This document shows, piece by piece, positions 13,442-29,311 of a stretch of 64,000 nucleotides of DNA. The notes below the pieces were generated by a model, which did no database searches, was not told where the DNA came from, and saw only the letters and a program-made list of their open reading frames with translations. Source of the stretch: Bacteroidota bacterium (GTDB lineage Bacteria; Bacteroidota; Bacteroidia; CAIKAF01); assembly GCA_016866335.1 (NCBI GenBank), contig VGMT01000011.1, positions 1-64,000 of the forward strand, written 5' to 3'. Positions within the stretch are counted from its first letter, which is position 1. Each line of letters opens with the position of its first letter. Position numbers and translations under genes: made by a program.

Positions 13442-14218
13442 ATGGACATGAAATACCTGCTTGGTTTGGCCTTGCCTTTGCTGCCGGCCCATGTCCCTCA
13501 CCCTGGGCCGGTTTACGCCCTAAGTAAACCAATAGAACTGGAAAGCACTCCGCCAAAAAGGGAGGTTGGTACCCTCTTCAAGCCTAAAGAGGTGCCAATG
13601 GCGTCGGTTACCTTGTATGTTTGGTACAGCCACTATGCCGCCAACAACCATTGGAAGTTGGTTGACTCTGCCGGCAATGTGGTGGATTGGGGCGGCCCAG
13701 GCAAGGAGCAATCTTGGAATCGAAAACAGGAATTGGAATTGGCAGCAGGGCGGTATCGACTGCATTGCATGGGAATTCACCCCGATGGTTGGAACGGTGG
13801 TTTTGTTATGCTGCAGGGCAAAGGTTGGCAATTTGGACCGGTGCAACCCGGAAACGGGGCTTCGGCCTGGTCCTTTGTGGTTCCTGAACCCCAGGTTTCT
13901 TCAAAATCCGATACTACCGTGCAGAGCTTCCCGCAATTGCTGCACGGATGGATAGGCGCCGCAGGCGAAACCGTTCAGGGGTATGGTTTTGATTTAGAAA
14001 AGCATGGGGCAGGACTGTACCGCATCCGTTTCCGAAATGCCTTTTCTAGACCGCCGACCGTAGTGGCTAGTCCTGCCACGGTGGCCAACCGACCCATCGG
14101 GATTCCGCTCAACATGGTTCAAATTGCCGCCGTTCAAACCCAAGATTGCTGGATTGAGGTGTTTAATTACGAAGGTTTGCCCGAAGACGGTGGCTTTACA
14201 TTTATGGCTTGGCAGTAG
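13442..14218 (+). CDS. Secreted protein of unknown function, two-part
   Basis: I do not recognise this 258-residue protein. It starts with a short hydrophobic leader (MDMKYLLGLALPLLPA), so export is likely. The first half has VTLYVWYSHYAANNHWKLVDSAGNVV and GRYRLHCMGIHPDGWNGGF, suggesting a beta-rich domain. The second half (about residue 165-258), with GWIGAAGETVQGYGFDLEKHGAGLYRI, FSRPPTVVASP and GGFTFMAWQ, resembles the beta-sandwich found at the C-termini of many phage-tail-like and bacterial surface proteins. It is divergent from the interrupted small secreted gene with an 83-base gap. No function is assigned. Confidence 0.65.
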   Translation: MDMKYLLGLALPLLPAHVPHPGPVYALSKPIELESTPPKREVGTLFKPKEVPMASVTLYVWYSHYAANNHWKLVDSAGNVVDWGGPGKEQSWNRKQELELAAGRYRLHCMGIHPDGWNGGFVMLQGKGWQFGPVQPGNGASAWSFVVPEPQVSSKSDTTVQSFPQLLHGWIGAAGETVQGYGFDLEKHGAGLYRIRFRNAFSRPPTVVASPATVANRPIGIPLNMVQIAAVQTQDCWIEVFNYEGLPEDGGFTFMAWQ

Positions 14219-14315
14219 GGCAGCCGAATTCATCGGGTTTAGAAACCTGTTGAGCGATTGATTGAAGGCCATTTTCGTTGCTTCCTTTTTTATGGGTAAG
14301 CTAGGTTCAATGACG

Positions 14316-14470
14316 CCCGCGGCAGGGATTGAAAGGGCTACCCCGCAAAGGTGCCGAAGCCTTGCCCGCTAGGTGCGGAGGCGACGTTAGGAGCCCCCGC
14401 AAACCAGCTGGGCCAGCCTTTCGGCAACTGCGGAGTAGCCCAGAAAGCCCGTAGCCGCCCCAGAAATCCC
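14316..14470 (+). repeat. GC-rich intergenic hairpin element, copy D
   Basis: Plus-oriented copy in the convergent gap between the unknown secreted protein and xth. It begins GCGGCAGGGATTG, carries the core TGCGGAGGCGACGTTAGGAG followed by CCCCCGCA, and ends AAAGCCCGTAGCCGCCCC. Outer arms pair: GCTACCCCGCA with TGCGGAGTAGC, and GTGCCGAA with TTTCGGCAAC. It is the close relative of copy B. Confidence 0.82.
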
Positions 14471-14489
14471 CAAAACCGATTAAATCGCT

Positions 14490-15254
14490 TTAATCTGCCA
14501 ACTCAAGCAGCGTAGGGCAGTGGTCCGAATGTACTGCGTTTTGCAGCAGTCCAGCCGACCTGAGCTTGGGCCTGAGCGACTCAGAAACAAACTGATAATC
14601 AATCCTCCAGCCTTTGTTGTTCGCTCGGGCATTGGCCCGAAAACTCCACCAAGAATACTGCTGCAAGTCCGGATTCAGCGCCCGAAAACCATCTATCCAG
14701 CCTTCGGCCAAAAAGGCATCTACCCAGGCGCGCTCCTCGGGCAAAAATCCCGTACTGTTCTTGTTCGAAACCGGGTTGTGAATGTCGATTTCCCTATGGC
14801 AAATGTTTACATCGCCGGCAATAAGCACCTCAGGCCGCTGCTGTAAAAGACCCGAAGCCCATTGCCGAAAGTCCTCTAAAAACAGGTATTTCACGTCCTG
14901 CCGCTCCTCGCCCGAGGTCCCACTTGGAAAATACGCACTCACCACCGTACGGCCTCCAAAATCGGAACGAATTACCCGTCCCTCGGCATCGTGCTGGGCA
15001 ATTCCCATTCCGCAAACAACTTGGTCAGCCGGCATTTTCGATAAAATCCCCACGCCGCTGTAGCCCTTTTTTTGAGCAGGATTCAGGTAAATGTGGTAGC
15101 CCATTTCCTTTAGGGGTGTCCAATCCACTTGATCTTCCATGGCTTTTAGCTCTTGCAGGCAAAGTACATCCGGGTTTTCAGTGCGGAGCCACTGTAGCAA
15201 GCCTTTGTTGATGGCCGAGCGGATTCCGTTCAGGTTGTAGGAGATGATTTTCAT
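14490..15254 (-). CDS. xth: Exodeoxyribonuclease III
   Basis: Class II AP endonuclease and 3'-5' exonuclease for base-excision repair. The 254-residue EEP-fold protein has SYNLNGIRSA at the N-terminus, PDVLCLQELKA (metal-binding Glu), YSGVGILSK, AGDVNICHREID (catalytic Asp and Asn), WSFRANARANNKGWRIDYQFVS and SDHCPTLLEL (final Asp-His). The start ATG at 15254 lies only eight bases beyond the U-tract of the rplI terminator, so expression must come from terminator readthrough or from a promoter inside rplI. Confidence 0.96.
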   Translation of the reverse strand: MKIISYNLNGIRSAINKGLLQWLRTENPDVLCLQELKAMEDQVDWTPLKEMGYHIYLNPAQKKGYSGVGILSKMPADQVVCGMGIAQHDAEGRVIRSDFGGRTVVSAYFPSGTSGEERQDVKYLFLEDFRQWASGLLQQRPEVLIAGDVNICHREIDIHNPVSNKNSTGFLPEERAWVDAFLAEGWIDGFRALNPDLQQYSWWSFRANARANNKGWRIDYQFVSESLRPKLRSAGLLQNAVHSDHCPTLLELAD

Positions 15255-15262
15255 AGGAATGC

Positions 15263-15288
15263 AAAAAAAAGGCGCCCGAAGGCGCCTT
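15263..15288 (-). terminator. Intrinsic terminator after rplI
   Basis: On the minus strand AAGGCGCC-TTCG-GGCGCCTT forms an 8-bp stem closed by a stable C(UUCG)G tetraloop, followed by a run of T. It lies 16 bases after the rplI stop and immediately before the xth start codon. Confidence 0.9.
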
Positions 15289-15304
15289 GAAATTCAAGTT
15301 TTTG

Positions 15305-15754
15305 TTATTCAGCAACCACCTCAAAGTCGAATTCCACACTTACTTCCTTGTGAAGCAAGGCGCTGGCACGGTAGGTGCCAATGGTGCGGATGTTGTCTTC
15401 TTTGATTTTCAGCTGACGGCGTTCAACCGAGTAACCGGCTTTCACCAACGCGTCGGCCAACATAATGGTGTTGATGGAACCGAAAATTTTCTCGGAATCG
15501 CTGCCCACTTTGGCTCCAACCTTCACGTTCGATTCGGTCAAACGCGCTGCCAAATCTTTGGCTTCGGTCAAAATACGCTCAGCTTTATGGGATTGCTGCC
15601 GCATGTTTTCGGCATGCACTTTCCGGGCCGATTCGGTAGCCATAACGGCCAAACCATTCGGAATCAAATAATTTCGAGCATAACCTGGGCGAACCTTAAC
15701 GATTTCGTTGACATAGCCAACGTGCTCAACGTCTTTTTTCAATATGATTTCCAT
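15305..15754 (-). CDS. rplI: 50S ribosomal protein L9
   Basis: Large-subunit protein L9 of 149 residues. MEIILKKDVEHVGYVNEIVKVRPGYARNYLIPNGLA is the canonical N-terminal 23S rRNA-binding domain; a long connecting helix (residues about 41-75) leads to the C-terminal domain. Last gene of the conserved rpsF-rpsR-rplI operon, six bases after rpsR, and followed by a strong intrinsic terminator. Confidence 0.98.
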   Translation of the reverse strand: MEIILKKDVEHVGYVNEIVKVRPGYARNYLIPNGLAVMATESARKVHAENMRQQSHKAERILTEAKDLAARLTESNVKVGAKVGSDSEKIFGSINTIMLADALVKAGYSVERRQLKIKEDNIRTIGTYRASALLHKEVSVEFDFEVVAE

Positions 15755-15760
15755 GGCTTC

Positions 15761-16057
15761 TTATTTTAAAAGGTCAGCAACGTAAGGCATAAGAGCCATG
15801 TGTCGAGAGCGTTTAACGGCCTGAGCCACTTTGCGCTGGTATTTAACTGAGGTTCCGGTAATGCGGCGGGGCAGCAATTTGCCCTGTTCGTTTACCAAAC
15901 GCAGTAAAAAATCGGGGTCTTTGTAATCGATATACTTAATGCCCAATTTTTTGAAGCGGCAATATTTAGAATTGCTGACTTCGATGGGTGGGGGAGTCAA
16001 ATAGCGTATTTCGCTTTGGTTTCCCTCTTTTTGATTAACGTCAATGTTGGTGCTCAT
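15761..16057 (-). CDS. rpsR: 30S ribosomal protein S18
   Basis: Small-subunit protein S18, 98 residues, binding S6 on the platform. Canonical core: [38 protein letters not shown] followed by [19 protein letters not shown]. The N-terminal 30 residues form an extension longer than in E. coli, which is common in this phylum. In the phylum Bacteroidota the S6-S18-bS21 region is involved in anti-Shine-Dalgarno sequestration; nothing here bears on that directly. Middle gene of the rpsF-rpsR-rplI operon. Confidence 0.98.
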
Positions 16058-16068
16058 GGTGCTGCAAA

Positions 16069-16407
16069 TTAAGATTTACCTGAAAGTTTAGTCCGACGCT
16101 TCTCGCTGTAGGCAATGGCATGCTTGTCCTGACGGAATGTGCCAAAGCGAATAATGCGTTCGTCGCGGCGATACGTTAATTCCAACTGGTCGATAAAAGC
16201 CGGATCGGCCTTAAATTCAAACAATTGATAAAACCCGGTCGACTTCTTTTGGATCGGGTAAGCTAATTTGCGTAGGCCCCAGGATTCGTCATTGATGACT
16301 TCACAACCGTTGTCTTTCAGCAAAGTTCTGTAGCGATCAACGGCCTCCCGAAGCTGCTCATCGCTTAACACAGGGGTTAGGATGAACATCGATTCGTACT
16401 GATTCAT
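16069..16407 (-). CDS. rpsF: 30S ribosomal protein S6
   Basis: Small-subunit protein S6, 112 residues: [23 protein letters not shown] at the start, [23 protein letters not shown] in the central strands, and [13 protein letters not shown] near the end. First gene of the S6-S18-L9 operon. No clear TAnnTTTG box is visible just upstream, where hairpin element E begins about 95 bases away. Confidence 0.98.
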
Positions 16408-16503
16408 GAAAATGTGTTTTTCCGTTTAAAATTGGACGGCAAAGTTAGTGTTTAAAGTTGAATAATGCAAGGCGCTTGGATTTTGGTTGACTGAAGGGGT
16501 ATT

Positions 16504-16645
16504 TGGGCGGCTGCGGGCTTTCCACTGTAGCTCACTTGCCGGCAGGGGCAGGGGCTTCGTGCGGGCGGGGCTTCCTCTGGTCGCCGCGCCCGCTCGGCCC
16601 CTGCGCCTGCCGTCTTCGCTCACTGCCGTTGCAATCCCTGCCGCA
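16504..16645 (-). repeat. GC-rich intergenic hairpin element, copy E
   Basis: Minus-oriented copy in the divergent gap between rpsF and the GH3 gene. Read in its own direction it begins GCGGCAGGGATTGCAACGG, has the core GGGCGCGGC..GCCCCGCCC and ends GAAAGCCCGCAGCCGCCC. Arms GGCAGGCGCAGGGGC and GCCCCTGCCCCTGCC pair across the core. It is nearly identical to copy F (29315-29457), with only two base differences that I can count over about 142 bases. Confidence 0.85.
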
Positions 16646-16720
16646 ATCCTCAAGGCCTAACTCTTAAACATGTACACAACAACTTGGGGGTGATTGAAAT
16701 ATTGTTTTTCCTTCAGCGTT

Positions 16721-16737
16721 GTGGTATTAAATACAAT
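16721..16737. promoter_or_regulatory. Operator-like palindrome upstream of the GH3 gene
   Basis: GTGGTATTAAATACAAT. Its reverse complement is ATTGTATTTAATACCAC, matching the perfect 17-bp palindrome at 26428-26444 at 15 of 17 positions. It ends nine bases before a TACCTTTC -7-like box (16747-16754) and 45 bases before the GH3 start. A related site lies in the susC promoter. Probably bound by the Nudix-type regulator encoded in this operon. Confidence 0.65.
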
Positions 16738-16781
16738 AAGTATTTGTACCTTTCGGGACCGATAACCACAAAGTTACAAAA

Positions 16782-19109
16782 ATGTCCATACACCAATCCG
16801 AACGGTCTCTTTTTGTTTTTTGTTTATTGCTCTTGCTGTTTTGTGTAAAGCCTTCTAAAATGCCTGCTCAGATGAACTGGACCGAAATTGATGTTCAGGC
16901 TGAAGCGATTTTAAAAACCATGTCGTTAAAACAAAAAGTAGGGCAGACCTGCCAGATCACGGTAGAGGGTATTCTGAGATTTAATCCCGATGGCACTTTG
17001 CCTTTGCCTCTTCAAGTGAATGGTGAAGAGTTGAGTGAGGCTGTGCAAACGTATAAAGTGGGTAGCATTCTCAATGCTCCTGGCCGGGCCCTTCCACGAA
17101 CTGAATGGCTGAAACTCATTCAAGCCATTCATGCACCCTATGTTAAAAAGGAAATTGATATTCCTATACTATATGGTGTGGATGCCATTCACGGGGCTAA
17201 TTATGTATTAGGAGCTACCTTATTTCCACAGGAAATTGGATTGGCAGCCACGTTTAATGTTGATTTGGCGCGGCAATTTGGAGAAGTCACTGCCGTGGAA
17301 ACCCGTTCTTCGGGTGTTCCTTGGAATTTTTCACCGGTATTGGATTTGGGACGGCAACCGCTATGGTCTCGTTTTTTTGAAACCCTAGGTGAAGATCCTA
17401 AACTGGCATCTGTGTTGGGTGCTTCTATTGTTAAAGGATATCAAGGTGATTTGAACCAATCTAAATTGGGTCCCGACCGGGTCCTAGCTTGCATGAAGCA
17501 TTTTGTGGGCTACAGCGCTTCTGCTTCTGGCCGCGACCGTACACCCGCTATTGTTTCGCCCCGAGATTTGACGGAATTATACCTGGTACCTTTTAAGTCA
17601 GCTGTTGAAGCAGGAGCTCTAACTGTTATGATCAATAGTGCTTCTCTGAACGGTATGCCGGGTCACATCAATTCTCATTTAATTACGGATGTATTGAAAA
17701 ATAAGTGGGGTTTTAAGGGTTTCGCTGTTACCGATTGGGAAGATATCCTATTTCTGGACCGTGTTCATCAGGTGGCGGCTTCACACAAAGATGCCATCGC
17801 TATGGCAATCAATGCCGGAATTGATTTGAGTATGGTTCCCTTAAATCCTCAATACAAAGAATACTGCCGATTGTTGGAAGAATTGGTGCTGGAAGGAGGT
17901 GTGCCAATGGCGCGCCTTGACGATGCGGTGAAACGCATTTTACGGGTAAAATTGGCAGCAGGTTTGTTTGATGTACCTAGCAAAAAAAACAAAACAGTTC
18001 CAATCACACTGCAGTCTGAGTCAGCTGTTTTAGCTGCAAAACAAGCGGTTTCAGAGTCGTTAACCTTATTGAAAAATGAACATTCGGTTCTGCCGCTTAA
18101 ACCTAATTCTTCAATTCTAGTTTTGGGGCAAGCAGCTGCCGACCGCCGATTCTGGAATGGAGCCTGGACACACACGTGGCAAGGGAGAGATTCCAGTTAT
18201 TTTTCAACGGATATTTCCCTGTTGAAGGAATGGCAACAGCGGGCCCAAACGCAGCAAGGCAAGGTTGATTACCTTGTTGGTAGTTCTTGGTCAGAAAGCA
18301 CCGGTATACCCAACGAGGGGGCTGGGTTAACCCCTCAAAATCAAAAATCGATTGAATCGGCCGATGTGTGTGTGGTGTTCGTTTCAGAATGGCCAGGAAC
18401 CGAAAAACCAGGCGATGAGGAAAATCCGTTTGTAACCCAAAATCAAATGGACTTGGTCCATGAACTTAAGGCTGCAGGTAAACGGGTTGTTGTGGTGCTA
18501 ATGTTAGGTCGCCCTAAATTGCTGGGTAGTATTCTTGACGATGCAGATGCTATTGTTCACGCCTATTTGCCGGGTGAACATTTTACCCAACCTTTTCTAG
18601 ATAAGATATATGGATCTGCTGATTTTTCAGGCCGACTCCCATTTACTTATCCTAGGTATCCGGGCCGGTGGGAGCATTACGACCATGCCAACAGCGAAAC
18701 CATCGCCAAAGACAATTCTGGGAATGGATACAATCCGCTCTTTGATTTTGGTTTCGGCCTTTCCTACGCTACCTGGTCGGTCGATGCCAGTTCAATTTCG
18801 GCAGATACGCTAAGGTCTGCCGATACGGTATGGCTTGAAGTGCGCTTGCGGCACAATGCCGACCGACCATGCCAAGTGACAGTGCCGGTTTTTGGTAGCA
18901 GAAGAAATCTGCCCATTGCTCAACGGGGAAAATACCTGATTGACTTTCAAAAGAAATGGGTGCCACAGGGAAATTCTGCGCTCTTCCGCTTTCCTCTTTC
19001 GGTTTCTCAATTTGAATTTTCAGATTACAACGGAAATTGGACTCAGGCTCGTGGCCCAATTCGCCTGGATGTGTTCAATTCCACTCTAAACGTTTACCTA
19101 GAACCCTAA
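16782..19109 (+). CDS. Glycoside hydrolase family 3 (beta-glucosidase)
   Basis: Exported 775-residue GH3 enzyme that would release glucose from beta-gluco-oligosaccharides in the periplasm. The signal peptide covers about residues 1-30 (LFVFCLLLLLFC). The first GH3 domain has LYGVDAIHGANYV, FSPVLDLGRQPLWSR, the KHF triad (239-241) and the nucleophile Asp318 in FAVTDWEDI. The second alpha/beta domain begins near TLLKNEHSVLPLKP, and the C-terminal fibronectin-like domain contains FDFGFGLSYA. First gene of a two-gene transcript with the regulator, under a promoter carrying the palindromic operator. The context with GH16 and SusCD suggests beta-1,3-glucan. Exact linkage preference cannot be read from sequence. 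Confidence 0.93.
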   Translation: MSIHQSERSLFVFCLLLLLFCVKPSKMPAQMNWTEIDVQAEAILKTMSLKQKVGQTCQITVEGILRFNPDGTLPLPLQVNGEELSEAVQTYKVGSILNAPGRALPRTEWLKLIQAIHAPYVKKEIDIPILYGVDAIHGANYVLGATLFPQEIGLAATFNVDLARQFGEVTAVETRSSGVPWNFSPVLDLGRQPLWSRFFETLGEDPKLASVLGASIVKGYQGDLNQSKLGPDRVLACMKHFVGYSASASGRDRTPAIVSPRDLTELYLVPFKSAVEAGALTVMINSASLNGMPGHINSHLITDVLKNKWGFKGFAVTDWEDILFLDRVHQVAASHKDAIAMAINAGIDLSMVPLNPQYKEYCRLLEELVLEGGVPMARLDDAVKRILRVKLAAGLFDVPSKKNKTVPITLQSESAVLAAKQAVSESLTLLKNEHSVLPLKPNSSILVLGQAAADRRFWNGAWTHTWQGRDSSYFSTDISLLKEWQQRAQTQQGKVDYLVGSSWSESTGIPNEGAGLTPQNQKSIESADVCVVFVSEWPGTEKPGDEENPFVTQNQMDLVHELKAAGKRVVVVLMLGRPKLLGSILDDADAIVHAYLPGEHFTQPFLDKIYGSADFSGRLPFTYPRYPGRWEHYDHANSETIAKDNSGNGYNPLFDFGFGLSYATWSVDASSISADTLRSADTVWLEVRLRHNADRPCQVTVPVFGSRRNLPIAQRGKYLIDFQKKWVPQGNSALFRFPLSVSQFEFSDYNGNWTQARGPIRLDVFNSTLNVYLEP

Positions 19110-19118
19110 ACAACTGTT

Positions 19119-19823
19119 ATGGTCTATAAAATTAAATTTGACCAGTTCTTTTCCTACTCCTTTTCCATGGACTGCCTGATTTTTGGCTTCTCCAATGGAA
19201 AAATTCATATCCTACTGGTAAAACGCGCAATGGAACCTTACGGAGGATATTGGGCAATTCCTGGAGATTTAGTGTATCCAGACGAAGATTTACCCAATGC
19301 TGCAGAACGTATTCTGGAAGAACTTACCGAACTTAAGAATGTGGCCCTGCGCCAAGGTGGCGTTTTCGGAAAGCCCAACAGGCATCCTCAAGGCCGGGTC
19401 ATAACCAATGCCTATCTGGCTATGGTTCGCATGAATGAAACCAACCCTCAACCTTCATCTTGGGTGGAGGAATTGCGTTGGGTTCCTGTTGATGAAGTAG
19501 AAATGCTCGCCTTTGATCACAATGAAATTTTAACGGCAACTTACCAGCGCCTTAAAGAGCGTTTTATCCATGAACCCATTTGTTTTGATATGCTGCCCTT
19601 GAAGTTTACACTAAATGAACTTCAACAACTCTATGAATATGCCTTTGGTATTTGCATCGATAAACCAAATTTTAGAAAACGGATTAAAAATCTGCCATTG
19701 ATCGAGCTGAAGGAGCGTCAGGAAAATGTAAAGCACCGACCCGCAACCCTGTATTCCTTTGATTGGGAAAAATACAAGAGCCTGGTAAGTGAGGGCCACT
19801 TTGAATTCAATATGTGGCTGTAA
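19119..19823 (+). CDS. Nudix-type transcriptional regulator (NrtR/AraR-like)
   Basis: 234-residue protein with an N-terminal Nudix-fold domain and a C-terminal winged helix, as in NrtR and the Bacteroides AraR regulator. The Nudix part has YWAIPGDLVYPDEDLPNAAERILEEL. The catalytic REUXEE motif is altered (ERILEE), consistent with a ligand-binding rather than hydrolysing domain. The C-terminal half (LPLKFTLNELQQLYEYAFG, NFRKRIKNLPLIEL) is the helix-turn-helix. It sits 10 bases after the GH3 gene. It is the only regulator gene in the glycan locus, so it is the best candidate to bind the three palindromes at 16721, 19860 and 26428. Confidence 0.88.
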   Translation: MVYKIKFDQFFSYSFSMDCLIFGFSNGKIHILLVKRAMEPYGGYWAIPGDLVYPDEDLPNAAERILEELTELKNVALRQGGVFGKPNRHPQGRVITNAYLAMVRMNETNPQPSSWVEELRWVPVDEVEMLAFDHNEILTATYQRLKERFIHEPICFDMLPLKFTLNELQQLYEYAFGICIDKPNFRKRIKNLPLIELKERQENVKHRPATLYSFDWEKYKSLVSEGHFEFNMWL

Positions 19824-19859
19824 GGCCATTTTAATGGAAAATTAGTCAAAGTTTAACTT

Positions 19860-19876
19860 ATTGTAAAAAATACTAT
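19860..19876. promoter_or_regulatory. Operator-like palindrome in the susC promoter
   Basis: ATTGTAAAAAATACTAT matches the palindrome ATTGTATTTAATACAAT at 13 of 17 positions, with both conserved half-site cores (ATTGTA and AATAC). It overlaps the 5' end of the TATATTTG -7 box. The preceding CTT is also shared with the sites upstream of GH3 (in reverse complement) and of the 26489 gene. Confidence 0.6.
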
Positions 19877-19881
19877 ATTTG
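19874..19881 (+). promoter_or_regulatory. -7 box of the susC promoter
   Basis: TATATTTG, a perfect TAnnTTTG, 17 bases before the susC ATG. It is overlapped by the operator-like palindrome, which would let a bound regulator block initiation. Confidence 0.65.
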
Positions 19882-19898
19882 ACTTCTAATCTTTAGGT

Positions 19899-22800
19899 AT
19901 GATTCGTTTTCTACTGATTCCTTTATCGTTTCTCCTTTCATTGGTTTTCAACCTTTCTGCCCAGGTTGTTAAAGGTTTGGTGAGCGATTCCAAGGGGCAA
20001 CCCATCCCATTTGTCAATGTGTTATCTAAGGGTAGTGGCTCGGGGACTCAAACAGATTTAAACGGTATTTTCCAATTGAGTGTTTTAGATTCTTTGGGTT
20101 CTACCCTTGAGTTTAGTGCAATTGGGTTTAAAAGGCAGTTTATGCCTGTTGGCGGTTCTGAGTTTGTAAAAGTGACTCTTCTAGATGATGTTCAGCGCTT
20201 GTCTGAATATCAGATGGTAGGGTATGGAACTTCCTCTCGCAAGGAAATGACAGCCGCATCTAGCCAAGTAGAAGGGGAAGATATAACCAAATTGAATGTT
20301 TCGCGGATGGATCAGGCCCTCCAAGGCCAAATGGCCGGAGTAAGCGTAACCACAAATTCAGGGAGTCCTGGAGGGTCTTCAAGCATTCGGATACGTGGCT
20401 TATCCACCTTTGGCGACAACGATCCCTTAATTTTGGTCGATGGTGTTGTGTATGATTCTGAAGGTTTAAATGCATTGAATCCCTCTGATATAGAGTCGGT
20501 GCAGGTTTTGAAGGATGCATCGGCCGGTATTTATGGCGTTAGGGCAGCCAATGGGGTTATTTTGGTAACCACTAAGCAAGGTAAAAAAGGTGCTCCTATG
20601 CGCATCACGTATGATGGGTATGCTGGAATTCAACAGACTGCTCGTCAATTAAATTTGTTGAATGCTCAGGAATACGCTGTAATAAAAAACGAAATGTTTG
20701 CTATGGGCGGACAACCTCTGCCCTTTAACAATACCAATGTAGGTGTTGGTACGCCTTGGCAAGACAGCGTATTTTCCTCGGCTCCCATTCAATCGCATCA
20801 ACTGGGAATTCAGGGAGGTTCCGAAAAGTCCACCTATTCTATGGGTTTGGGTTATTTTAGTCAAGATGGTATTGTAGGCGGAAATAAATCCCACTTTTCA
20901 AGATACAATGGGCGGTTGAATTTTACCCATGTGCTTTCAAAGCGCGTACGATTCAATTCTGTTTTGTTGTTTTCAAGTGAATTCCGCCGAACCCTACCTG
21001 AAAATGGAATAGGTTCCGTATTGTACAATACAATTAATGCCTTTCCTACGGCTCCCGTTCGTCAACCCGATGGTCGTTTTTCTTACTTGGAAGAAGTGAA
21101 CGACATTATCAATCCCATTGCTCAAATTCAAAATCAATACAATGGAGTTCAAACCATGAAATGGGTTGGTAAAGAAGAAGTTGAAATCGATATCTTTAAA
21201 GGATTAACCTTTACCAATCGCTTTAATTTTAATTACGCAACGCTTCAAAATAAGGTGTTCTCCCCTTTGGTGTGGTATGGGCAAGGTAAATTTGCGAATA
21301 CAGCCATCAATGAGCAATTGGAATCGCCTATGGTGGCTATTGCCGATAGTTTTATGGTGGAACGGGGAGCTGCAGTATATGAAGAAAATACTTCATTTCT
21401 TGATCTATCCTACGAAGGGTTCATGAACTATGAGGCTACTGTGGCTGAGCACCATAGATTGAAGGGTTTGATTGGATTTTCGTTGTTTGAGCGGAAAGGG
21501 GAGTCGCTATCGGGCATTGGCTATGGAATTCCCAACAATTCTTTAGAATTTGCTGACATCTCAGCGAATACCGCCGCCGGAGGTTTTTTGAACAATACCT
21601 TCAGTTGGGAATTTACAGAACGCTTGTTGTCTTACTTTGGTCGGATAGAATATGCCTACAAGGAAAAGTATATGGTTTCGGCTTTGTTGCGGCGCGATGG
21701 CAGCAGTAAATTTGGTCCGAATAACCGATATGGTTGGTTCCCTACCATTGCCGGAGCTTGGGTAATATCAGACGAAGGTTTTTACTCCAGTTCATTCATT
21801 GATTATTTGAAGTTACGTAGCAGTATAGGCTTATCTGGGAACGATCAAATTCCCAATTTTGCCTATCGTGCTTTGTTAAACGGAGAAGGGGTTTACGTAT
21901 TTGATGATGTGATTACTTCTGGAGTGGCAATTGGTACTGCTGCCAATCCAGACTTAAAATGGGAATCTACACTGCAAATAAATGTTGGTGTTGATTTTTC
22001 ATTGTTCAACTCCATTCAATTGTCATTGGATGTGTACGAAAAACGGACATCCAATTTGTTGTTTCAGCCCGATGTTTCAGCTTTGATTGGTTCTTATGGT
22101 CCGGGAGGATTCCCGCCTGTAATTAATGCTGGCGATGTATTAAATCGTGGTTTTGAGTTGGAACTGGCCTATCAAACTCCTGTCCGTTCTCCATTCCAAT
22201 TTTCAGGAAAATACACCTTTGGAATGGTGCACAACGAGGTGCTTTCGGTCCCTGTGGGAATTGATTACCTACCGGGAGCAGCCTTTGGGGTAGGTGGCGA
22301 TGTGGCTACCCGTTTCCAGGTTGGACAGCCTATTGGGTATTTTTTTGGATTTGAAACCAACGGTGTTTTTCAATCTCAAGAACAAATTGACAATGCTCCC
22401 CAGCAAAACGGTGCTCAGCCCGGTGATTTAATTTTTGTAGATCAAAACGGAGATGGGGTCATTAATTTCAATGACGACTCTGACAAGGCCTTTTTGGGTT
22501 CCCCCATTCCTGATTTCACTATGGGTTTGATGCTGAATGCCGGATTTAAGGGGTTTGATTTGTCGGTCAATCTGTATGCGGCAGTAGGGCAGGAGGCCAT
22601 CCGAAACTACGAGCGCCAACAGCCCTTCGCCAACCAGTTGGATTATGTAATTGACCGCTGGGTAGGTCCAGGTTCTACCAACGAGCATCACAGGCTAACT
22701 ACAGAACCCACTCGAAACGCCATTTTTTCCTCATATTTCGTTGAAGATGCCTCTTTTTTACGCATTCGCAACATTCAATTGGGGTACAGCTTACCCACAA

Positions 22801-22988
22801 AATGGCTTTCAAAACTTAAGATTCAGGGAATTCGAATTTATGGGTCGGTAAACAATGCCTTTACCTTTACAGCATATAAAGGGTTTGACCCTGAATTTTC
22901 TTCGGCTTCGATTTTGAGCGCTGGAGTTGACAATGGTTTTTACCCTCAAGCCCGTTCATTTATGGGCGGTGTTCAAATTAAATTTTAA
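19899..22988 (+). CDS. susC: SusC/RagA-type TonB-dependent outer-membrane transporter
   Basis: Outer-membrane barrel for oligosaccharide import, 1029 residues. Order: signal peptide (1-22, ending LSAQ); carboxypeptidase-regulatory-like N-terminal extension (VKGLVSDSKGQPIPFVNV); TonB-box-like region near QMVGYGTSS; plug domain with LQGQMAGVSV, IRIRGLST, PLILVDGVVYD and ANGVILVTTKQG; then the 22-strand barrel ending FMGGVQIKF with a terminal aromatic. Followed after four bases by its SusD partner. Promoter with TAnnTTTG box and operator-like palindrome upstream. The glycan specificity is inferred from the neighbouring GH16 and GH3 genes. Confidence 0.97.
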   Translation: MIRFLLIPLSFLLSLVFNLSAQVVKGLVSDSKGQPIPFVNVLSKGSGSGTQTDLNGIFQLSVLDSLGSTLEFSAIGFKRQFMPVGGSEFVKVTLLDDVQRLSEYQMVGYGTSSRKEMTAASSQVEGEDITKLNVSRMDQALQGQMAGVSVTTNSGSPGGSSSIRIRGLSTFGDNDPLILVDGVVYDSEGLNALNPSDIESVQVLKDASAGIYGVRAANGVILVTTKQGKKGAPMRITYDGYAGIQQTARQLNLLNAQEYAVIKNEMFAMGGQPLPFNNTNVGVGTPWQDSVFSSAPIQSHQLGIQGGSEKSTYSMGLGYFSQDGIVGGNKSHFSRYNGRLNFTHVLSKRVRFNSVLLFSSEFRRTLPENGIGSVLYNTINAFPTAPVRQPDGRFSYLEEVNDIINPIAQIQNQYNGVQTMKWVGKEEVEIDIFKGLTFTNRFNFNYATLQNKVFSPLVWYGQGKFANTAINEQLESPMVAIADSFMVERGAAVYEENTSFLDLSYEGFMNYEATVAEHHRLKGLIGFSLFERKGESLSGIGYGIPNNSLEFADISANTAAGGFLNNTFSWEFTERLLSYFGRIEYAYKEKYMVSALLRRDGSSKFGPNNRYGWFPTIAGAWVISDEGFYSSSFIDYLKLRSSIGLSGNDQIPNFAYRALLNGEGVYVFDDVITSGVAIGTAANPDLKWESTLQINVGVDFSLFNSIQLSLDVYEKRTSNLLFQPDVSALIGSYGPGGFPPVINAGDVLNRGFELELAYQTPVRSPFQFSGKYTFGMVHNEVLSVPVGIDYLPGAAFGVGGDVATRFQVGQPIGYFFGFETNGVFQSQEQIDNAPQQNGAQPGDLIFVDQNGDGVINFNDDSDKAFLGSPIPDFTMGLMLNAGFKGFDLSVNLYAAVGQEAIRNYERQQPFANQLDYVIDRWVGPGSTNEHHRLTTEPTRNAIFSSYFVEDASFLRIRNIQLGYSLPTKWLSKLKIQGIRIYGSVNNAFTFTAYKGFDPEFSSASILSAGVDNGFYPQARSFMGGVQIKF

Positions 22989-22992
22989 TCCG

Positions 22993-24453
22993 ATGAAAAC
23001 GGTTTTACGTATCGCTGCCTTTTTCTGCCTGACGCTTCCTTTTTCTTCCTGCGATGATTTCCTAGATGTTAATCCTCCCTATTCACAGGATGCTGAAAAT
23101 TACTTTAGGACTCCCGAAGATTATCAACGTGCCCTAGTTGGAGCTTACGATTTATTGCAGGCTTCCTTCTTATCGGTATGGATTGGAGAAATCGCATCGG
23201 ATAATACCATAGCTGGAGGAGAAAGCTTCAACGACACCCAAGGCCTACACCAAATTGATGGTATGCAGCATGGAGCCGTCAATACCGAATTGAGAAATGT
23301 TTTTCGTTGGAATTACGCCGGCATTGCCAGGGTCAATTTTATTATGGAAAACAAAGACAATATTGATTTTCCTGGAAAAGCACAACTTTTGGCTGAGGCA
23401 CGTTTTTTAAGAGCGTTCTATTATTTCGAGTTGACTAAATTTTTTGGAGACATTCCACTCATTATTGATGAACGCCTAGGAATCGAAGATGCGGCTAAAC
23501 GGCCAAGAGTACCTCAGCCCCAAGTTTATGACCAAATTGTAGCCGATTTATTGGCGTGCATTCCTGATTTGTCAACAGTAGCTGCGCAAAAGGGAAGAGT
23601 AACCAAAGCCGCAGCACAAGCCTTATTGGGTAAAGCCTATTTGTATCAAAATAAGTATGCGGATGCCTTACCGGTGTTCGAGGAAATTATTCAGTCAGGC
23701 CAATTTGCCTTACATCCAAATTATTCGGAATTGTGGACGTTGGTAAATGAGCAAAATTCGGAAACCATTTTTAGCGTAGAATATTCCGGCTTAGAAGGAG
23801 GAAGTTATGGCTGTTTGGTTTGCCTTGAAGGAAATGCAGGTCCCGGATTTCACGGCATACGGCAGTACACCGGGCCTGTTTATGGCGATGGTAACAGCTA
23901 CAATTTACCTACCCCAGAATTGTATGCAGCATTTTCTCAAATTGACCCAAGGCGAGATGCAACTGTTTTAGATATTGAAGCGTTCATTGCAGCTCAACCG
24001 AATCCTTCCGCCATCACCTATGCTGTCGGCGGTGGCGGTCACACTGGATATTACAACAACAAATACATCAAGCGTCAGGGTGAAATTGGATTGCCCGATA
24101 ATGATTTGACAAGCCCCCTGAACTACAAGGTAATCCGCTATGCCGATGTGCTTTTGATGGCGGCCGAAGCTCATCTGATGACAGGCAATAAACCGCAGGC
24201 TCAACAGTATGTAAATCAGGTTCGAAGCCGGGTACAAATTCCTGGAATTTCCGTAAATTCAATCGATGATATTTTAAAAGAACGAAGATTGGAACTTGCT
24301 TGCGAAGGTCACCGCTTTTTTGATTTGGTCCGTACAGGAAAGGCGGCTGATTTTATCGCTGGGTATGTTCCTTCAAAACATGATTTGTTCCCTATACCCC
24401 AAGTTGAAATTGATTTGGCCGGTGGATCATGGATGCAAAATCCCGGATATTAA
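22993..24453 (+). CDS. susD: SusD/RagB-type surface glycan-binding lipoprotein
   Basis: Surface lipoprotein of 486 residues that caps the SusC barrel and captures glycan. Lipobox FSSC at about residue 17-20, then DDFLDVNPP, the typical SusD start. TPR-like helices follow (ARFLRAFYYFELTKFFGDIPL, AAAQALLGKAYLYQNKY) and the C-terminal signature KERRLELACEGHRFFDLVRTG is present. I choose the ATG at 22993; an upstream in-frame start at 22927 would lie inside susC and lack a signal peptide. Four-base gap to susC, 11-base gap to the next lipoprotein gene. Confidence 0.96.
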   Translation: MKTVLRIAAFFCLTLPFSSCDDFLDVNPPYSQDAENYFRTPEDYQRALVGAYDLLQASFLSVWIGEIASDNTIAGGESFNDTQGLHQIDGMQHGAVNTELRNVFRWNYAGIARVNFIMENKDNIDFPGKAQLLAEARFLRAFYYFELTKFFGDIPLIIDERLGIEDAAKRPRVPQPQVYDQIVADLLACIPDLSTVAAQKGRVTKAAAQALLGKAYLYQNKYADALPVFEEIIQSGQFALHPNYSELWTLVNEQNSETIFSVEYSGLEGGSYGCLVCLEGNAGPGFHGIRQYTGPVYGDGNSYNLPTPELYAAFSQIDPRRDATVLDIEAFIAAQPNPSAITYAVGGGGHTGYYNNKYIKRQGEIGLPDNDLTSPLNYKVIRYADVLLMAAEAHLMTGNKPQAQQYVNQVRSRVQIPGISVNSIDDILKERRLELACEGHRFFDLVRTGKAADFIAGYVPSKHDLFPIPQVEIDLAGGSWMQNPGY

Positions 24454-24464
24454 TTACTTGAATT

Positions 24465-25322
24465 ATGAAACATATAGCATTTTATCTACTGGGTTTTATT
24501 CTAATTGGAAGCGCTTGCCAGCAAACCGATCCTGAGCTGGGGCCACCACCCACCGAACAGGATGCTCAAATTTTTATGGAAGTTTCACCCAACTCCAACA
24601 ACATTCTTCTATTTCGCTGCGGAAATCAACAACTTCTAGCTATCTGGGATTTTGGCAATCAAACCGGAGCCAAGGGCACCTCTGTAGAAGGGCGTTTCCC
24701 ATACGCAGGAACCTATACAGTTCAGGTACGGGTTTTTAATAAAGGAGGTAGCCGTACCAATTCCATTACTGTTACCATTGCCCAAGACGACCTGTCTTTG
24801 CTCGACCATCCTATTTTTAATGCCCTTACAGGCGGTCCTCAAAATGGGGGCATTAAAACCTGGCGCATTGATTCAATGGCTTCCGGCCACATGGGCGTTG
24901 GTCCCGACCCCGAAAGTGCCGCAGGCGCCATTCCTGAATGGTGGGCAGCAAGTCCTGCCGACAAATCCGGTTGTGGGATGTACGATGATAGATTTACCTT
25001 TTCACTCAGTGGATTCGGTTTTACCATGCAAACCAATGGAGATGTATACGTTCACAATACCATTGCTAATCAATTTCCAGGTTCATTTATGAATAAAGGA
25101 GACTACACGGCACCCTTCGATGACAACATAACCTCTTCATGGAACCTGATTGAAGAGGGAGAAAATTCATTTCTAGAAATTTCAGGCAGCGCATTCCTAG
25201 GTTTTTACACGGGGGTACGTACCTACCGAATTTTAGAATTTTCCGATTCTCATATAAGCCTTCAATATAAACACCATGCTGGTGGTTTGCATTGGTACAT
25301 TAAACTCGTTCCTGCCCAATGA
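24465..25322 (+). CDS. Surface lipoprotein with PKD-like domain, putative glycan-binding protein
   Basis: 285-residue lipoprotein; the lipobox cysteine is at about residue 18 (LIGSACQ). Residues about 35-105 form a PKD-like beta-sandwich (LAIWDFGNQTGAKGTSVEGRFPYAGTYTVQVRVFN). From about residue 120 a second domain begins KTWRIDSMASGHMGVGP and contains EWWAASP, CGMYDDRFTF and a Trp-rich ending LHWYIKLV. The same domain, in diverged form, makes up the N-terminal half of the secreted protein at 26489. Position after susD is that of a surface glycan-binding protein. It overlaps the GH16 gene by four bases. The binding role is inference. Confidence 0.82.
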   Translation: MKHIAFYLLGFILIGSACQQTDPELGPPPTEQDAQIFMEVSPNSNNILLFRCGNQQLLAIWDFGNQTGAKGTSVEGRFPYAGTYTVQVRVFNKGGSRTNSITVTIAQDDLSLLDHPIFNALTGGPQNGGIKTWRIDSMASGHMGVGPDPESAAGAIPEWWAASPADKSGCGMYDDRFTFSLSGFGFTMQTNGDVYVHNTIANQFPGSFMNKGDYTAPFDDNITSSWNLIEEGENSFLEISGSAFLGFYTGVRTYRILEFSDSHISLQYKHHAGGLHWYIKLVPAQ

Positions 25323-26419
25323 TGTATTCTCTTTTGTCGGTTTCAGCTCTGGCAGCTGTCCTTACTCTTTCTAGTTGTGAATCTGATCCCGTTAATCAGG
25401 TGATTTTGCCAGAAAATCTTCAGATTTCCACTTTAGTTTCTGAAACTGGCCTAGCTGAAATAACAGCTCAAGCTGACTTTACTAATTTTTACACCGCCAC
25501 GGTTTGGAATGGTTCAGATTCCGTTCATTTTCAGGAAACCTCTGGCAATTTTTCCTGGCAATTGACTGCCCCAGGCACATACGCCTTCAGGGTTCGTGCT
25601 CACACTACCGCTACCGATTTCATTGAAAAATTAGATACTCTTATCTGGTTTGTCGATACCAGCAACTCTGGTAGCTTCCCTTCAAGCGGGTATTCCACTC
25701 CAATTTCATACCCTGGTTATACCTTGGTTTGGAACGATGAGTTTTCAGGAACCGCCTTATCGTCCGATTGGGTGTTTGACATTGGAACAGGAAATTTCGG
25801 CTGGGGAAACAATGAACTTCAATACTATACCAACCAAAACGTTAGAGTTCTGAAAGGAGTTCTTGAGATTACGGCTAAAAAGGAGCCATTCAATACCTCT
25901 CAGTATACATCTACCCGAATCAAAACTCTAGGTCAAAAATCGGTGAAATATGGCCGCATTGATATCCGCGCAGCCATGCCACAAGGTCAAGGGATTTGGC
26001 CCGCTTTGTGGATGCTTGGTGATGCGTTTTCATCCATTGGATGGCCTCACTGTGGAGAAATAGATATTATGGAAATGATTGGAGGCCAGGGCAACAACGA
26101 CCGCACAGCCCATGGCACTGCACATTGGTTTAACAACGGCCATGCCAGCCATACCGACAGTAAAACTATTCCTTCAGGTACCCTTGCCGATAAGTTCCAT
26201 GTTTACAGCATAATATGGAACGCTCAATCCATTACTTGGCTGTTTGATGACCAGGTATACAATACATTGTCCATTACAGATGCTCAATTTTCAGCGTTTC
26301 ATGAACCTTTCTTCTTCATATTTAATGTAGCAGTGGGTGGAAACTGGCCAGGCCCACCAAATGCCTCTACCAGTTTTCCTCAATCTATGTATGTGGATTA
26401 TGTTCGGGTTTTTCAATAA
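25319..26419 (+). CDS. Glycoside hydrolase family 16 (laminarinase-like endo-beta-glucanase)
   Basis: 366-residue lipoprotein enzyme expected at the cell surface, cutting beta-1,3- or mixed beta-glucan. Lipobox LSSC with Cys20. Residues about 30-110 look like a PKD or Ig-like domain. The GH16 domain starts at YTLVWNDEFSG (residue about 135) and contains WGNNELQYYT, GIWPALWML, and the catalytic motif GEIDIMEMIG with nucleophile Glu247, Asp249 and acid/base Glu252; YVDYVRVFQ is the usual ending. The intact motif with Met inserted (EIDIME) is the laminarinase-type GH16. Last gene of the susC-susD-lipoprotein-GH16 run. Confidence 0.95.
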   Translation: MMYSLLSVSALAAVLTLSSCESDPVNQVILPENLQISTLVSETGLAEITAQADFTNFYTATVWNGSDSVHFQETSGNFSWQLTAPGTYAFRVRAHTTATDFIEKLDTLIWFVDTSNSGSFPSSGYSTPISYPGYTLVWNDEFSGTALSSDWVFDIGTGNFGWGNNELQYYTNQNVRVLKGVLEITAKKEPFNTSQYTSTRIKTLGQKSVKYGRIDIRAAMPQGQGIWPALWMLGDAFSSIGWPHCGEIDIMEMIGGQGNNDRTAHGTAHWFNNGHASHTDSKTIPSGTLADKFHVYSIIWNAQSITWLFDDQVYNTLSITDAQFSAFHEPFFFIFNVAVGGNWPGPPNASTSFPQSMYVDYVRVFQ

Positions 26420-26427
26420 TTTCCCTT

Positions 26428-26444
26428 ATTGTATTTAATACAAT
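26428..26444. promoter_or_regulatory. Perfect 17-bp operator-like palindrome
   Basis: ATTGTATTTAATACAAT, a perfect inverted repeat with 8-base arms around a central T. It lies between the GH16 stop and the next gene, overlapping the -33 element of the promoter at 26429-26459. Diverged copies occur upstream of the GH3 gene and in the susC promoter. Confidence 0.75.
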
Positions 26445-26459
26445 TATTATTTACTTTTA
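26429..26459 (+). promoter_or_regulatory. Promoter of the type IX-secreted protein gene
   Basis: TTG (26429-26431), exactly 20 bases, then TACTTTTA (26452-26459). This is the Bacteroidota -33/-7 arrangement. The palindrome at 26428-26444 covers the -33 element and most of the spacer. Confidence 0.65.
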
Positions 26460-26488: not shown

Positions 26489-27601
26489 ATGAAAAAACTT
26501 TTTCTTGCAATGATGCTTCCAACCGCCCTGATGGCTCAGGTTGAAGGAACATGGAAACTGGCTCAACAATCTGGTGCTTTGGGTGTAGGCCCCAACAAAG
26601 GCAATATTTCCTGGTGGAGCAATTCCCCAACCGATTTAACAACGCGCGCCTGTTTGTTTGATGACTCTATTACCTTCAATACCAACGGTCAAATGTTGCA
26701 TTACATGGATGGCAATACTTGGGTAGAGGTATGGCAAGGCGCTGGCGCCGATGGCTGTGGTACTCCTGTAGCGCCCCACGATGGTTCTGGTCAATACACT
26801 TGGAGTTTTGATGCTACTCAAGGAACTTTGACTGTTAATGGATTGGGTGCCCATATGGGTTTGGCTAAGGTGATTAACGGTGCCGAAATTAACAACCCCA
26901 ATTTGGCGGCCTCTTCTATTACCTATGAAGCTGCACTTTCCAACAACAACCAAACTTTGACCTTAGATATTAACTTCGGTGGTGGCTACTGGCGTTTTGT
27001 TTACAATAAAATCACTTCAATCCCTGTTCCCCTTCCAAAGGTTACGTTCCGAGTCGATATGGCAGATTACACCGGATCCACCGCCAACGGTGTCTTCCTA
27101 AACGGTGAAATGAATGGCTGGTGCGGTTCTTGCGCTCCTATGGTGAATACCTCGGCAGACATCTGGGAACTGCAAGTAGATGTGCCTGCAGGACCAGTTC
27201 AATACAAATTTACCGTTGACGGCTGGTCCGATAAAGAGAATTTCGTTGGCGGTGAGGCCTGTGTAGACACAGTTAACGATGGTTTCTTCAACCGCGTATA
27301 CGATGTAACAGGCGATGCAGTTCTTGCCCTTGTTTGCTTCAACAGCTGTACAGACTGCGCCACCACAGGTATTGAATCAAACGGTATTTCCGTAAACGTG
27401 TACCCCAATCCCACCGAAGATTTAGTTCAGGTTACTTCATCCAATTCTGTAATTTCAATAACTTTATTTGACCTTGTTGGTCGTAAGGTGGCTGAAAACC
27501 ATTCTGATGTATTGAATGTAGCTCATTTAAACAGCGGTACCTACCGTTTGGTAGTAGAGCACGAAAAAGGAATCTATTCAACCACCCTAATTAAACGGTA
27601 A
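26489..27601 (+). CDS. Type IX-secreted protein with putative glycan-binding domains
   Basis: 370-residue secreted protein. Signal peptide 1-16 (MKKLFLAMMLPTALMA). Residues about 17-175 (GTWKLAQQSGALGVGP, WWSNSPTDL, CLFDDSITF, GGGYWRFVYNKI) share the pattern of the second domain of the lipoprotein at 24465. Residues about 185-275 (VTFRVDMADYTGSTANGVFLNGEMNGW, VPAGPVQYKFTVDGW) look like an immunoglobulin-like starch-binding (CBM20/48-like) module. The last 75 residues (VNVYPNPTEDLVQV, VGRKVAE, SGTYRLVVEHEKG) are a type A type IX sorting domain. No catalytic motif seen. It probably binds glycan outside the cell; this is inferred from its locus and shared operator. Confidence 0.8.
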   Translation: MKKLFLAMMLPTALMAQVEGTWKLAQQSGALGVGPNKGNISWWSNSPTDLTTRACLFDDSITFNTNGQMLHYMDGNTWVEVWQGAGADGCGTPVAPHDGSGQYTWSFDATQGTLTVNGLGAHMGLAKVINGAEINNPNLAASSITYEAALSNNNQTLTLDINFGGGYWRFVYNKITSIPVPLPKVTFRVDMADYTGSTANGVFLNGEMNGWCGSCAPMVNTSADIWELQVDVPAGPVQYKFTVDGWSDKENFVGGEACVDTVNDGFFNRVYDVTGDAVLALVCFNSCTDCATTGIESNGISVNVYPNPTEDLVQVTSSNSVISITLFDLVGRKVAENHSDVLNVAHLNSGTYRLVVEHEKGIYSTTLIKR

Positions 27602-27625
27602 TTTGGTTTTCTTTGAATAGCATTG

Positions 27626-27658
27626 CAGAGGTGGGGGAAACTCCACCTCTGTTTTTTT
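27626..27658 (+). terminator. Intrinsic terminator after the type IX-secreted protein gene
   Basis: CAGAGGTGG, an 8-base loop, then CCACCTCTG: a perfect 9-bp stem followed by seven T. It separates the secreted-protein gene from the symporter gene, whose ATG follows 13 bases later. Confidence 0.9.
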
Positions 27659-27670
27659 AATCTATCGCCT

Positions 27671-29311
27671 ATGTCCACCATTGACCTTTTGGTAATTTTT
27701 TCTTACGCCATGATAATTATGGGCTTAGGTTGGTTTGTTGCCCTTCGCTCTAAAAAAATAGACCAAACCGCCTCCGATTTTTTCTTGGCAAACAAATCCC
27801 TTCCCTGGTGGGCCATCGGTGCTTCTTTGATTGCAGCCAACATCTCGGCCGAACAATTTATTGGCATGTCTGGATCAGGGTTCTCGGTAGGTCTTGCAAT
27901 TGCCTCTTACGAATGGATGGCCGCCATTACCCTTTTGCTCGTTGGCAAGTTTTTCTTGCCCTTGTATCTAAAACTGGAAATTTCTACCATCCCTGAGTTC
28001 ATCGAAAAACGATATTCCTCCCAACTTAAATCCATCTTAGCACTTTTTTGGGTTTTTCTTTATGTATTCGTAAACATTGCCTCTGTTTTATACCTTGGGG
28101 CTCTCTCCATACAAGGATTGTTCGACCTTCCGCTAATTTATGGTATTCTATTGCTGGCCCTTTTTTCAGGAGCCTATTCCATTTACGGTGGATTGGCATC
28201 CGTGGCATGGACCGATGTAGTTCAAGTGGTTTTCTTAATTGTTGGAGGCTTCCTAACCACGTTTCTGGCCTTGGATTTGGTTTCCCAAGGACAAGGCGCT
28301 TGGAATGGCCTTGTGCTTCTTTATGAAGCTGTTCCCCAAAAATTTGAAATGATTCTTGAGCCTTCCAACCCCCAATACATTAATTTGCCAGGCATCGCTG
28401 TTTTAGTTGGTGGTATGTGGGTTGCAAATTTGTACTATTGGGGTTTTAACCAATACATTATTCAACGCACCTTGGCCGCCAAATCTTTGAAGGAGGCACA
28501 AAATGGGATCCTTTTTGCAGCTGGAATAAAATTATTATTGCCCCTGCTGGTTGTTATTCCAGGCATTGCGGCCTTTGTTATTGTTCAAAATCCAGATATT
28601 TTGGCTTCCCTCGGAAGCAATGCACTTGAATACGCCCCCAACGCGCAACACCCAGATCGGGCCTACCCATGGTTGCTAAACCTACTCCCTCCCGGAATTA
28701 AGGGACTCGCTTTCGCTGCACTATGCGCTGCCATTGTTTCTTCCCTAGCCTCTATGGTTAATTCCACTTCAACCATCCTTACCCTTGATGTTTTTGCCCC
28801 TTTTTCAAAAGTACGCCCAAACGACAAACGCCTGATTCAATTCGGACGCATATCTGGGATTTTCGCCCTTGGGCTAGGAGTCCTTACTGCCCCCTTATTG
28901 GGCAACATCGAACAAGCTTTTCAATTTATTCAAGAATACACAGGCCTGGTTAGCCCTGGTATTTTAGCCATTTTTGTTTTAGGCCTTTTTACTCGATTTG
29001 CAACAAATAAAGCAGCCATTTTTGGAATTATTTTCTCTACAGCGCTCGCTCTTTATTTCAAAGTTGGTGCAAACGGCTGGATTGCCTCCTCCTTGTTCCC
29101 ATCCCTTCCATTCATGCATCAAATGGGTATTACCTTTGTAGGCACCTGCTTGTTTATTGCCGGATTTAGTTTAATTCAAAATCAAGGAAAGCCCGATAGC
29201 AAGGGGTTCCACATTCAAGCCCTCGATTTCAAAACAGGCTGGGCTTTTAATTTTGCGGCAAGCATCTTGGTGCTAATGGTTGGGTTGTTGTACTGGTTTT
29301 TAAGAGATTAA
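27671..29311 (+). CDS. Sodium/solute symporter, SGLT-like
   Basis: Inner-membrane transporter of the solute:sodium symporter family, 546 residues from the ATG at 27671, with about 13-14 membrane segments. SGLT signatures are visible: FFLANKSLPWWAIGASLIAANISAEQFIGMSGSGF near the start, GGLASVAWTDVVQ, and AALCAAIVSSLASMVNSTSTI later. An upstream in-frame TTG is rejected because it falls inside the terminator hairpin. As the last gene of the glycan locus it most likely imports glucose or a disaccharide released by the GH3 enzyme. It follows a strong terminator, so it needs readthrough or an unseen promoter. Confidence 0.9.
   Translation: MSTIDLLVIFSYAMIIMGLGWFVALRSKKIDQTASDFFLANKSLPWWAIGASLIAANISAEQFIGMSGSGFSVGLAIASYEWMAAITLLLVGKFFLPLYLKLEISTIPEFIEKRYSSQLKSILALFWVFLYVFVNIASVLYLGALSIQGLFDLPLIYGILLLALFSGAYSIYGGLASVAWTDVVQVVFLIVGGFLTTFLALDLVSQGQGAWNGLVLLYEAVPQKFEMILEPSNPQYINLPGIAVLVGGMWVANLYYWGFNQYIIQRTLAAKSLKEAQNGILFAAGIKLLLPLLVVIPGIAAFVIVQNPDILASLGSNALEYAPNAQHPDRAYPWLLNLLPPGIKGLAFAALCAAIVSSLASMVNSTSTILTLDVFAPFSKVRPNDKRLIQFGRISGIFALGLGVLTAPLLGNIEQAFQFIQEYTGLVSPGILAIFVLGLFTRFATNKAAIFGIIFSTALALYFKVGANGWIASSLFPSLPFMHQMGITFVGTCLFIAGFSLIQNQGKPDSKGFHIQALDFKTGWAFNFAASILVLMVGLLYWFLRD

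Follow-up and report, generated by a model that had tools for sequence, protein, structure and literature searches.

The DNA analysed here is a 64,000-nucleotide stretch (the window) of contig VGMT01000011.1 from a Bacteroidota bacterium, and it contains what is likely a small laminarin-type (beta-1,3-glucan) utilization locus of eight co-oriented genes in three transcription units, one of which encodes a regulator of the NrtR family. This protein very probably binds one palindromic site before each of the three operons. Sites of this kind precede the same genes in other bacterial families as well, so the three operons are probably switched together. As an overall explanation, we consider it highly probable that the protein is a repressor at three promoters, is autoregulated, and is released by a sugar derived from the glucan.

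Palindromic sites in the promoters of the locus

The three units are GH3-NrtR, susC-susD-PKD-GH16, and a gene for a protein secreted by the type IX secretion system (T9SS) followed by a symporter gene. Spacing within the units is short (about 10–20 bp, or overlap), and larger gaps occur only before GH3, susC and the T9SS gene. Each of these larger gaps contains one palindromic site:

26428..26444, plus strand: candidate operator 3, the perfect 17-bp palindrome ATTGTATTTAATACAAT, 0 mismatches (1 on the opposite strand)
16721..16737, minus strand: candidate operator 1, GTGGTATTAAATACAAT on the plus strand, 15/17 to the palindrome (2 mismatches), upstream of the GH3-NrtR unit
19860..19876, plus strand: candidate operator 2, ATTGTAAAAAATACTAT, upstream of susC, 13/17 on the plus and 14/17 on the minus strand

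An earlier note on this DNA had described these sites, giving 13/17 for the one before susC, and had placed them before exactly three transcription units. The perfect palindrome, the reverse-complement copy upstream of GH3 and the susC match all hold, the last being better on the minus strand, and one site lies ahead of each unit's first ATG, at distances of 61 bp (GH3), 39 bp (susC) and 61 bp (T9SS gene). The proposed operator consensus is T[T/G/A]GTA-N5-TAC[A/C/T]A.

The specificity of the motif is apparent at two scales. Within the window, sequences with at most three mismatches to the palindrome occur at these three places only, giving 5 strand-hits where dinucleotide shuffles give 0.40 (largest shuffle, 3). 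Across the 2.45-Mb genome, all other places with at most two mismatches lie inside coding sequence, as do all other matches to the arms ATTGTA-N5-TACAAT with at most one mismatch (for example 23888, in susD). Four further three-mismatch places are intergenic by a simple open reading frame (ORF) call, and all are without the GTA-N5-TAC core of the three locus sites. In the genome-wide scan that the earlier note had suggested as a check, no promoter outside the locus has a convincing match. The possibility of a larger regulon in this genome was considered and set aside, the remaining matches being coding or core-less. One of the four intergenic places, C30:23036, was likewise rejected as a regulon member: it fits the looser T-class pattern defined below, but sits at a two-gene junction inside a cytochrome-oxidase-type operon.

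The sites had also been described as lying in or beside promoter elements, and this is borne out, with the elements taken as consensus matches and not as mapped starts. Operator 3 holds a TTG (-33), operator 2 overlaps a -7 box, and the GH3 site is just upstream of a conserved -7 candidate:

19874..19881, plus strand: -7 box TATATTTG of the susC promoter, a perfect TAnnTTTG, kept in the same-genus relative G003 and overlapping operator 2
16747..16754, plus strand: candidate -7 box TACCTTTC of the GH3 promoter, a consensus match kept in G003 and present as TATCTTTC in the genome G390
26452..26459, plus strand: candidate -7 box TACTTTTA of the T9SS gene, a -7-like consensus match 20 bp after the TTG within operator 3

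With every site on or next to a promoter core, a bound regulator would exclude RNA polymerase.

Conservation of the sites in relatives

Footprinting at orthologous loci finds the sites kept wherever same-genus relatives keep the regulator, and also in another family, at susC and/or T9SS promoters. Specifically, the locus is intact, with its three sites, in 2/2 same-genus relatives with the regulator (G003 and G004, 96–97% identity; a scan of genome contigs gave none beyond these two). Operators 2 and 3 are kept at 17/17 positions, and operator 1 has an unchanged core with most of its upstream flank different. Five genomes of the other family (G034, G252, G276, G227 and G374) encode a regulator of 55–58% and a SusC of 62–64% identity in the gene order NrtR-SusC-SusD-PKD-GH16-GH3-T9SS; two sites precede susC in 5/5, and a single site precedes the T9SS gene in 4/4 examined. 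Counterparts of operator 3 precede the T9SS gene in G252, G276, G227, G374 and G317, that of G317 having exact arms, and G390 has a one-mismatch site, ATTGTACAAACAACAAT, 54 bp before GH3. When the 300 bp before orthologous genes are searched for the arms with at most one mismatch, the five other-family genomes yield 14 sites against 0.03 expected from dinucleotide shuffles; these genomes are mutually related, and so the 14 sites are not 14 independent events. The arms are also frequent genome-wide in other-family genomes (14–39 forward matches vs 2–13 for controls), an excess that suggests possible extra sites there. The earlier note had named two grounds for rejecting the regulon, equal frequency of the motif at random promoters and loss of the sites where the regulator is kept, and neither was found.

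The other-family loci have further features of their own. The paired sites before susC lie at 12166 and 12314 in L054, 1372 and 1522 in L122, 10518 and 10668 in L123, 10269 and 10398 in L124, and 10149 and 10277 in L125, with a pair spacing of 128–150 bp. The upstream site of the pairs resembles the GH3 promoter of the window (TACAATaatgtttgtatcttcggg in L054, TACAATaagtatttgtacctttcggg in the window), as if a promoter had moved with the gene order. In L124 (8078) and L125 (7956), a T-class-like site (ATTGTAATTTGGACAAT and ATTGTAAATTGGACAAT, respectively) lies 34 bp before the gene adjoining NrtR; the gene behind the L124 site encodes an MFS transporter, and the regulon may have an MFS protein in place of the SSS symporter.

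The regulator and the geometry of its predicted operator

The only regulator gene in the locus, as the earlier note had stated, encodes a Nudix-type protein in the GH3 transcript; no regulator gene of another type was found there. The protein is of the NrtR family, with NUDIX, NrtR_WHD and AraR_C domains (PF00293 and PF21906 above cut-offs), and its best PDB match is AraR of Bacteroides thetaiotaomicron (5bs6/5ddg, E 1.1e-45, full length). Sugar-responsive NrtR regulators are already known in the phylum, as the earlier note had said, in the form of AraR and XylR. The Nudix box is degenerate (GDLVYPDEDLPNAAERILEELTEL, with D for E, ER for RE and T for the final G), and judged by these residues the pocket is catalytically impaired. 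An NAD-metabolism NrtR responsive to ADP-ribose was rejected (NCBIfam NtrR equivalog score 131.2 vs a cut-off of 400), and a single-sequence structure prediction of the regulator (mean predicted local distance difference test score, pLDDT, of 35) was not used.

In AraR numbering, the DNA contacts K179, N181, R183, K184 and R205 are retained, R180 is replaced by proline (Pro183 here) and K204 by histidine. Among the sugar contacts, Arg34, Arg86 and His131, which form hydrogen bonds in AraR, are kept along with Phe129, and Phe36, Gly48 and Phe49 are Met, Asp and Leu. The AraR subfamily is marked by the full set of DNA contacts (K179, R180, N181, K184, K204 and R205), a complete arabinose pocket and arabinose catabolic neighbours; here the set of contacts and the pocket are both incomplete, and the neighbours are GH3, SusCD, the PKD protein, GH16, the T9SS protein and the symporter.

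The contacted half-sites in the AraR co-crystal operator are GTGT-N7-ACAC (PMC4666351, Table 2), and the perfect site here, TTGT-N7-ACAA, is equal to it in geometry. Near 79 NrtR homologues, palindromes with 5-bp arms (xTGTx-xACAx) have a gap of 7 in 24 loci and gaps of 3–6 and 8–14 in 2–10. The earlier note had linked this protein to the motif by inference; support for that pairing now comes from the family of the protein, the conserved sites, the AraR geometry with its gap of 7 and an operator class linked to a residue; our confidence in the predicted pairing is high.

A recognition-helix residue and the operator class

In the AraR complex, Arg180 is intercalated between base pairs 8 and 9 (PMC4666351). 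Among the 79 distinct homologues, GNGT-N7-ACNC occurs near the gene in 25/43 of those with Arg at this position and 0/36 of those without. Conversely, T[AGT]GT-N7-AC[ACT]A (the T class) occurs near 28/36 non-Arg genes (Pro/Ala/Gly/Ser) and 3/43 Arg genes, against a shuffle background of 2.3; the T-class pattern was worded after viewing the glucan-clade sites and the alignment, and the comparison is therefore not blind. On the tree, the residue changes 4 times and the motif 3 times, concordantly and too rarely for significance, and the independent pairs number only 1–3, none discordant, which is again too few. A tandem-NrtR clade (f54), which the tree places away from the glucan clade, has a conserved TGGTAAATTTGACTA that fits the T-class pattern. 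We give an even chance to the idea that, in sugar-responsive NrtR proteins, a single residue of the recognition helix determines the operator class and that the glucan and tandem-NrtR clades switched independently. Under such a code, an Arg intercalating at base pairs 8/9 would go with the half-site GNGT; where Pro, Ala, Gly or Ser takes its place, T would become the outer base and position 8, which stacks on Arg, would be degenerate (T/G/A), with the 7-bp spacing kept.

Two sets of other homologues are worth describing. In L030, L108, L110–L112, L114, L116, L117 and L119, the NrtR gene is preceded at a distance of ~330 bp by a strongly conserved block, TATGGTAAATTTGACTACAAGTGTA; it holds the T-class half-site pair TGGT-N7-ACTA, and at least some of its NrtR genes are tandem pairs. 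In the same genome as the window, an Arg-type paralogue (G000 contig C17, about 12188–16999; L069 5689–10500; minus strand) has the palindrome GTGTCAATAATACAC (GTGT-N7-ACAC) 48 bp upstream. It heads an Entner-Doudoroff-type set (G6PD, 6-phosphogluconolactonase and an Edd/IlvD-like dehydratase), so that central glucose catabolism may also be under NrtR control.

Proposed mechanism and alternatives

We propose that a homodimeric repressor would sit on one operator in each of the three promoters, and that an occupied operator would keep RNA polymerase off its promoter. With an operator in the GH3-NrtR promoter, the regulator would also control itself. When glucan is present, GH16, SusCD, periplasmic GH3 and the symporter would bring sugar into the cytoplasm; sugar in the Nudix pocket would, like arabinose in AraR, cause the DNA-binding domains to rotate, and the sugar-bound regulator would leave all three promoters together. 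Confidence in repression by promoter occlusion is moderate. Free glucose is the leading candidate for the inducer because GH3 would release glucose and a symporter is in the regulon, a choice held with low confidence, since a phosphorylated sugar or a disaccharide from the glucan is together about as likely. The pocket Asp-Leu (48–49) is found also in the glucose-pathway paralogue (L020), and the neighbours of sister regulators include laminarin-type GH17 and GH30.

Several observations weigh against this proposal. Binding, repression and effector are predictions from sequence, and activation, though less likely, would be compatible with the same sequence. One half-site of the GH3 operator, GTGGTA, is poor, and in G065, a more distant genome in which the locus is kept, the susC site has diverged to ATAGTACTTTGTACCAA and fails the strict arm test. 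About a quarter of the non-Arg and two fifths of the Arg homologues have no recognizable site near the gene, and the association of residue with operator rests on 3–4 tree changes, so that shared ancestry could produce it. Furthermore, no genome with the locus and without the regulator was found that could serve as a negative control; the same-genus G001, G002 and G005 provide none, since they lack the regulator and an orthologous SusC alike.

It is unlikely that the linked NrtR acts on these sites as an activator, or through looping or cooperative binding, instead of by simple occlusion. The two sites 128–150 bp apart before susC in five relatives would make looping possible, but every site in the window overlaps or adjoins a -33 or -7 region, and AraR, the closest characterized member, is a repressor that loses DNA on binding arabinose. 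We regard as quite improbable the idea that a different regulator encoded elsewhere, such as a Crp-like or global sugar regulator, uses the three sites while the linked NrtR has other targets. The AraR, XylR and FucR sugar operons of Bacteroides do also bear a Crp-like palindrome, TATGTTnTAnAACATA (PMC3878776), but it differs in sequence and spacing; the motif described here accompanies the NrtR regulator across families, has the geometry of the AraR operator, belongs to a class that tracks the NrtR recognition helix and, unlike the sites of a global regulator, is limited in the genome to the locus. Likewise, AT-rich promoters lift the background and other genomes carry several arm matches, but the genome-wide specificity, the excess at orthologous promoters, the sharp preference for a gap of 7 and the better conservation of site cores than of flanks make it exceedingly improbable that these are AT-rich promoter features or chance palindromes and not operators.

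Genes of the locus

16782..19109, plus strand: GH3 beta-glucosidase (Pfam PF00933 1.5e-65, PF01915 3e-36)
19119..19823, plus strand: NrtR-family regulator, NUDIX-like sensor and winged-helix DNA-binding domain (PF21906 NrtR_WHD 1.8e-19, PF00293, PF19368 AraR_C)
19899..22988, plus strand: SusC-type TonB-dependent transporter (TIGR04056 2.9e-240)
22987..24453, plus strand: SusD-type glycan-binding lipoprotein (PF07980/PF14322; best PDB 6gcz)
24465..25322, plus strand: PKD-domain glycan-binding lipoprotein (PF00801; PDB 7kv5, E 6e-34)
25319..26419, plus strand: GH16 endo-beta-1,3-glucanase, laminarinase type (PF00722; best PDB matches the laminarinases 6jh5, 6jhj and 4crq)
26489..27601, plus strand: secreted (T9SS) CBM48-like glycan-binding protein (PF18962, PF02922)
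27623..29311, plus strand: sodium:sugar symporter of the SSS family, encoded at the end of the third unit (PF00474 1.1e-59; listed ORF start TTG)

By eye, the C-terminal half of the PKD lipoprotein and the N-terminal half of the T9SS protein have a GVGP...WW-type region in common, which suggests a common glycan-binding module.

Relation to known systems

A beta-glucan NrtR regulon with a T-class operator appears undescribed in the open library searched, regulon databases and the original NrtR family paper aside. We found no paper there on NrtR with laminarin; the laminarin-locus literature checked names no Nudix-type regulator (one paper notes LuxR-annotated genes only), and the text of PMC6298971 makes no mention of Nudix regulators. 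The proposal offers a concrete, testable prediction of regulator, operator and inducer for beta-1,3-glucan (laminarin-type) loci, and would add a hexose polymer to the pentose targets of sugar-sensing NrtR regulators. If the pairing of residue and operator is true, operators could be predicted for many uncharacterized NrtR proteins, and the pairing would bear on the need for amino-acid intercalation in DNA recognition by this family.

It is informative to compare this system with those already characterized. AraR of B. thetaiotaomicron (BT0354; PMC4666351; PDB 5BS6/5DDG) shares the domain order, the operator geometry xTGT-N7-ACAx, the DNA contacts K179, N181, K184 and R205, the sugar contacts R34, R86, F129 and H131, and a sugar regulon of several operons that includes its own. 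In contrast, its Arg180 is Pro here (Ala, Gly or Ser in relatives) and its Lys204 is His, the outer half-site base is G there and T here, pocket positions 48–49 are Gly-Phe there and Asp-Leu here, and it serves arabinose genes in place of a beta-glucan locus. XylR of the same species (BT0791; PMC3878776) is likewise a sugar regulator of the NrtR family, encoded next to the genes of its pathway, although its targets are xylose genes, and NrtR of Shewanella oneidensis (3GZ5/3GZ6) shares the two-domain organization with a Nudix-like sensor but responds to ADP-ribose and targets NAD metabolism. Finally, the flavobacterial laminarin polysaccharide utilization locus variant A (PMC6298971) has the same combination of a SusC/D pair, GH3 and GH16; there, however, two GH16 genes frame GH3, whereas the locus here has one GH16, a dedicated NrtR regulator and its own symporter.

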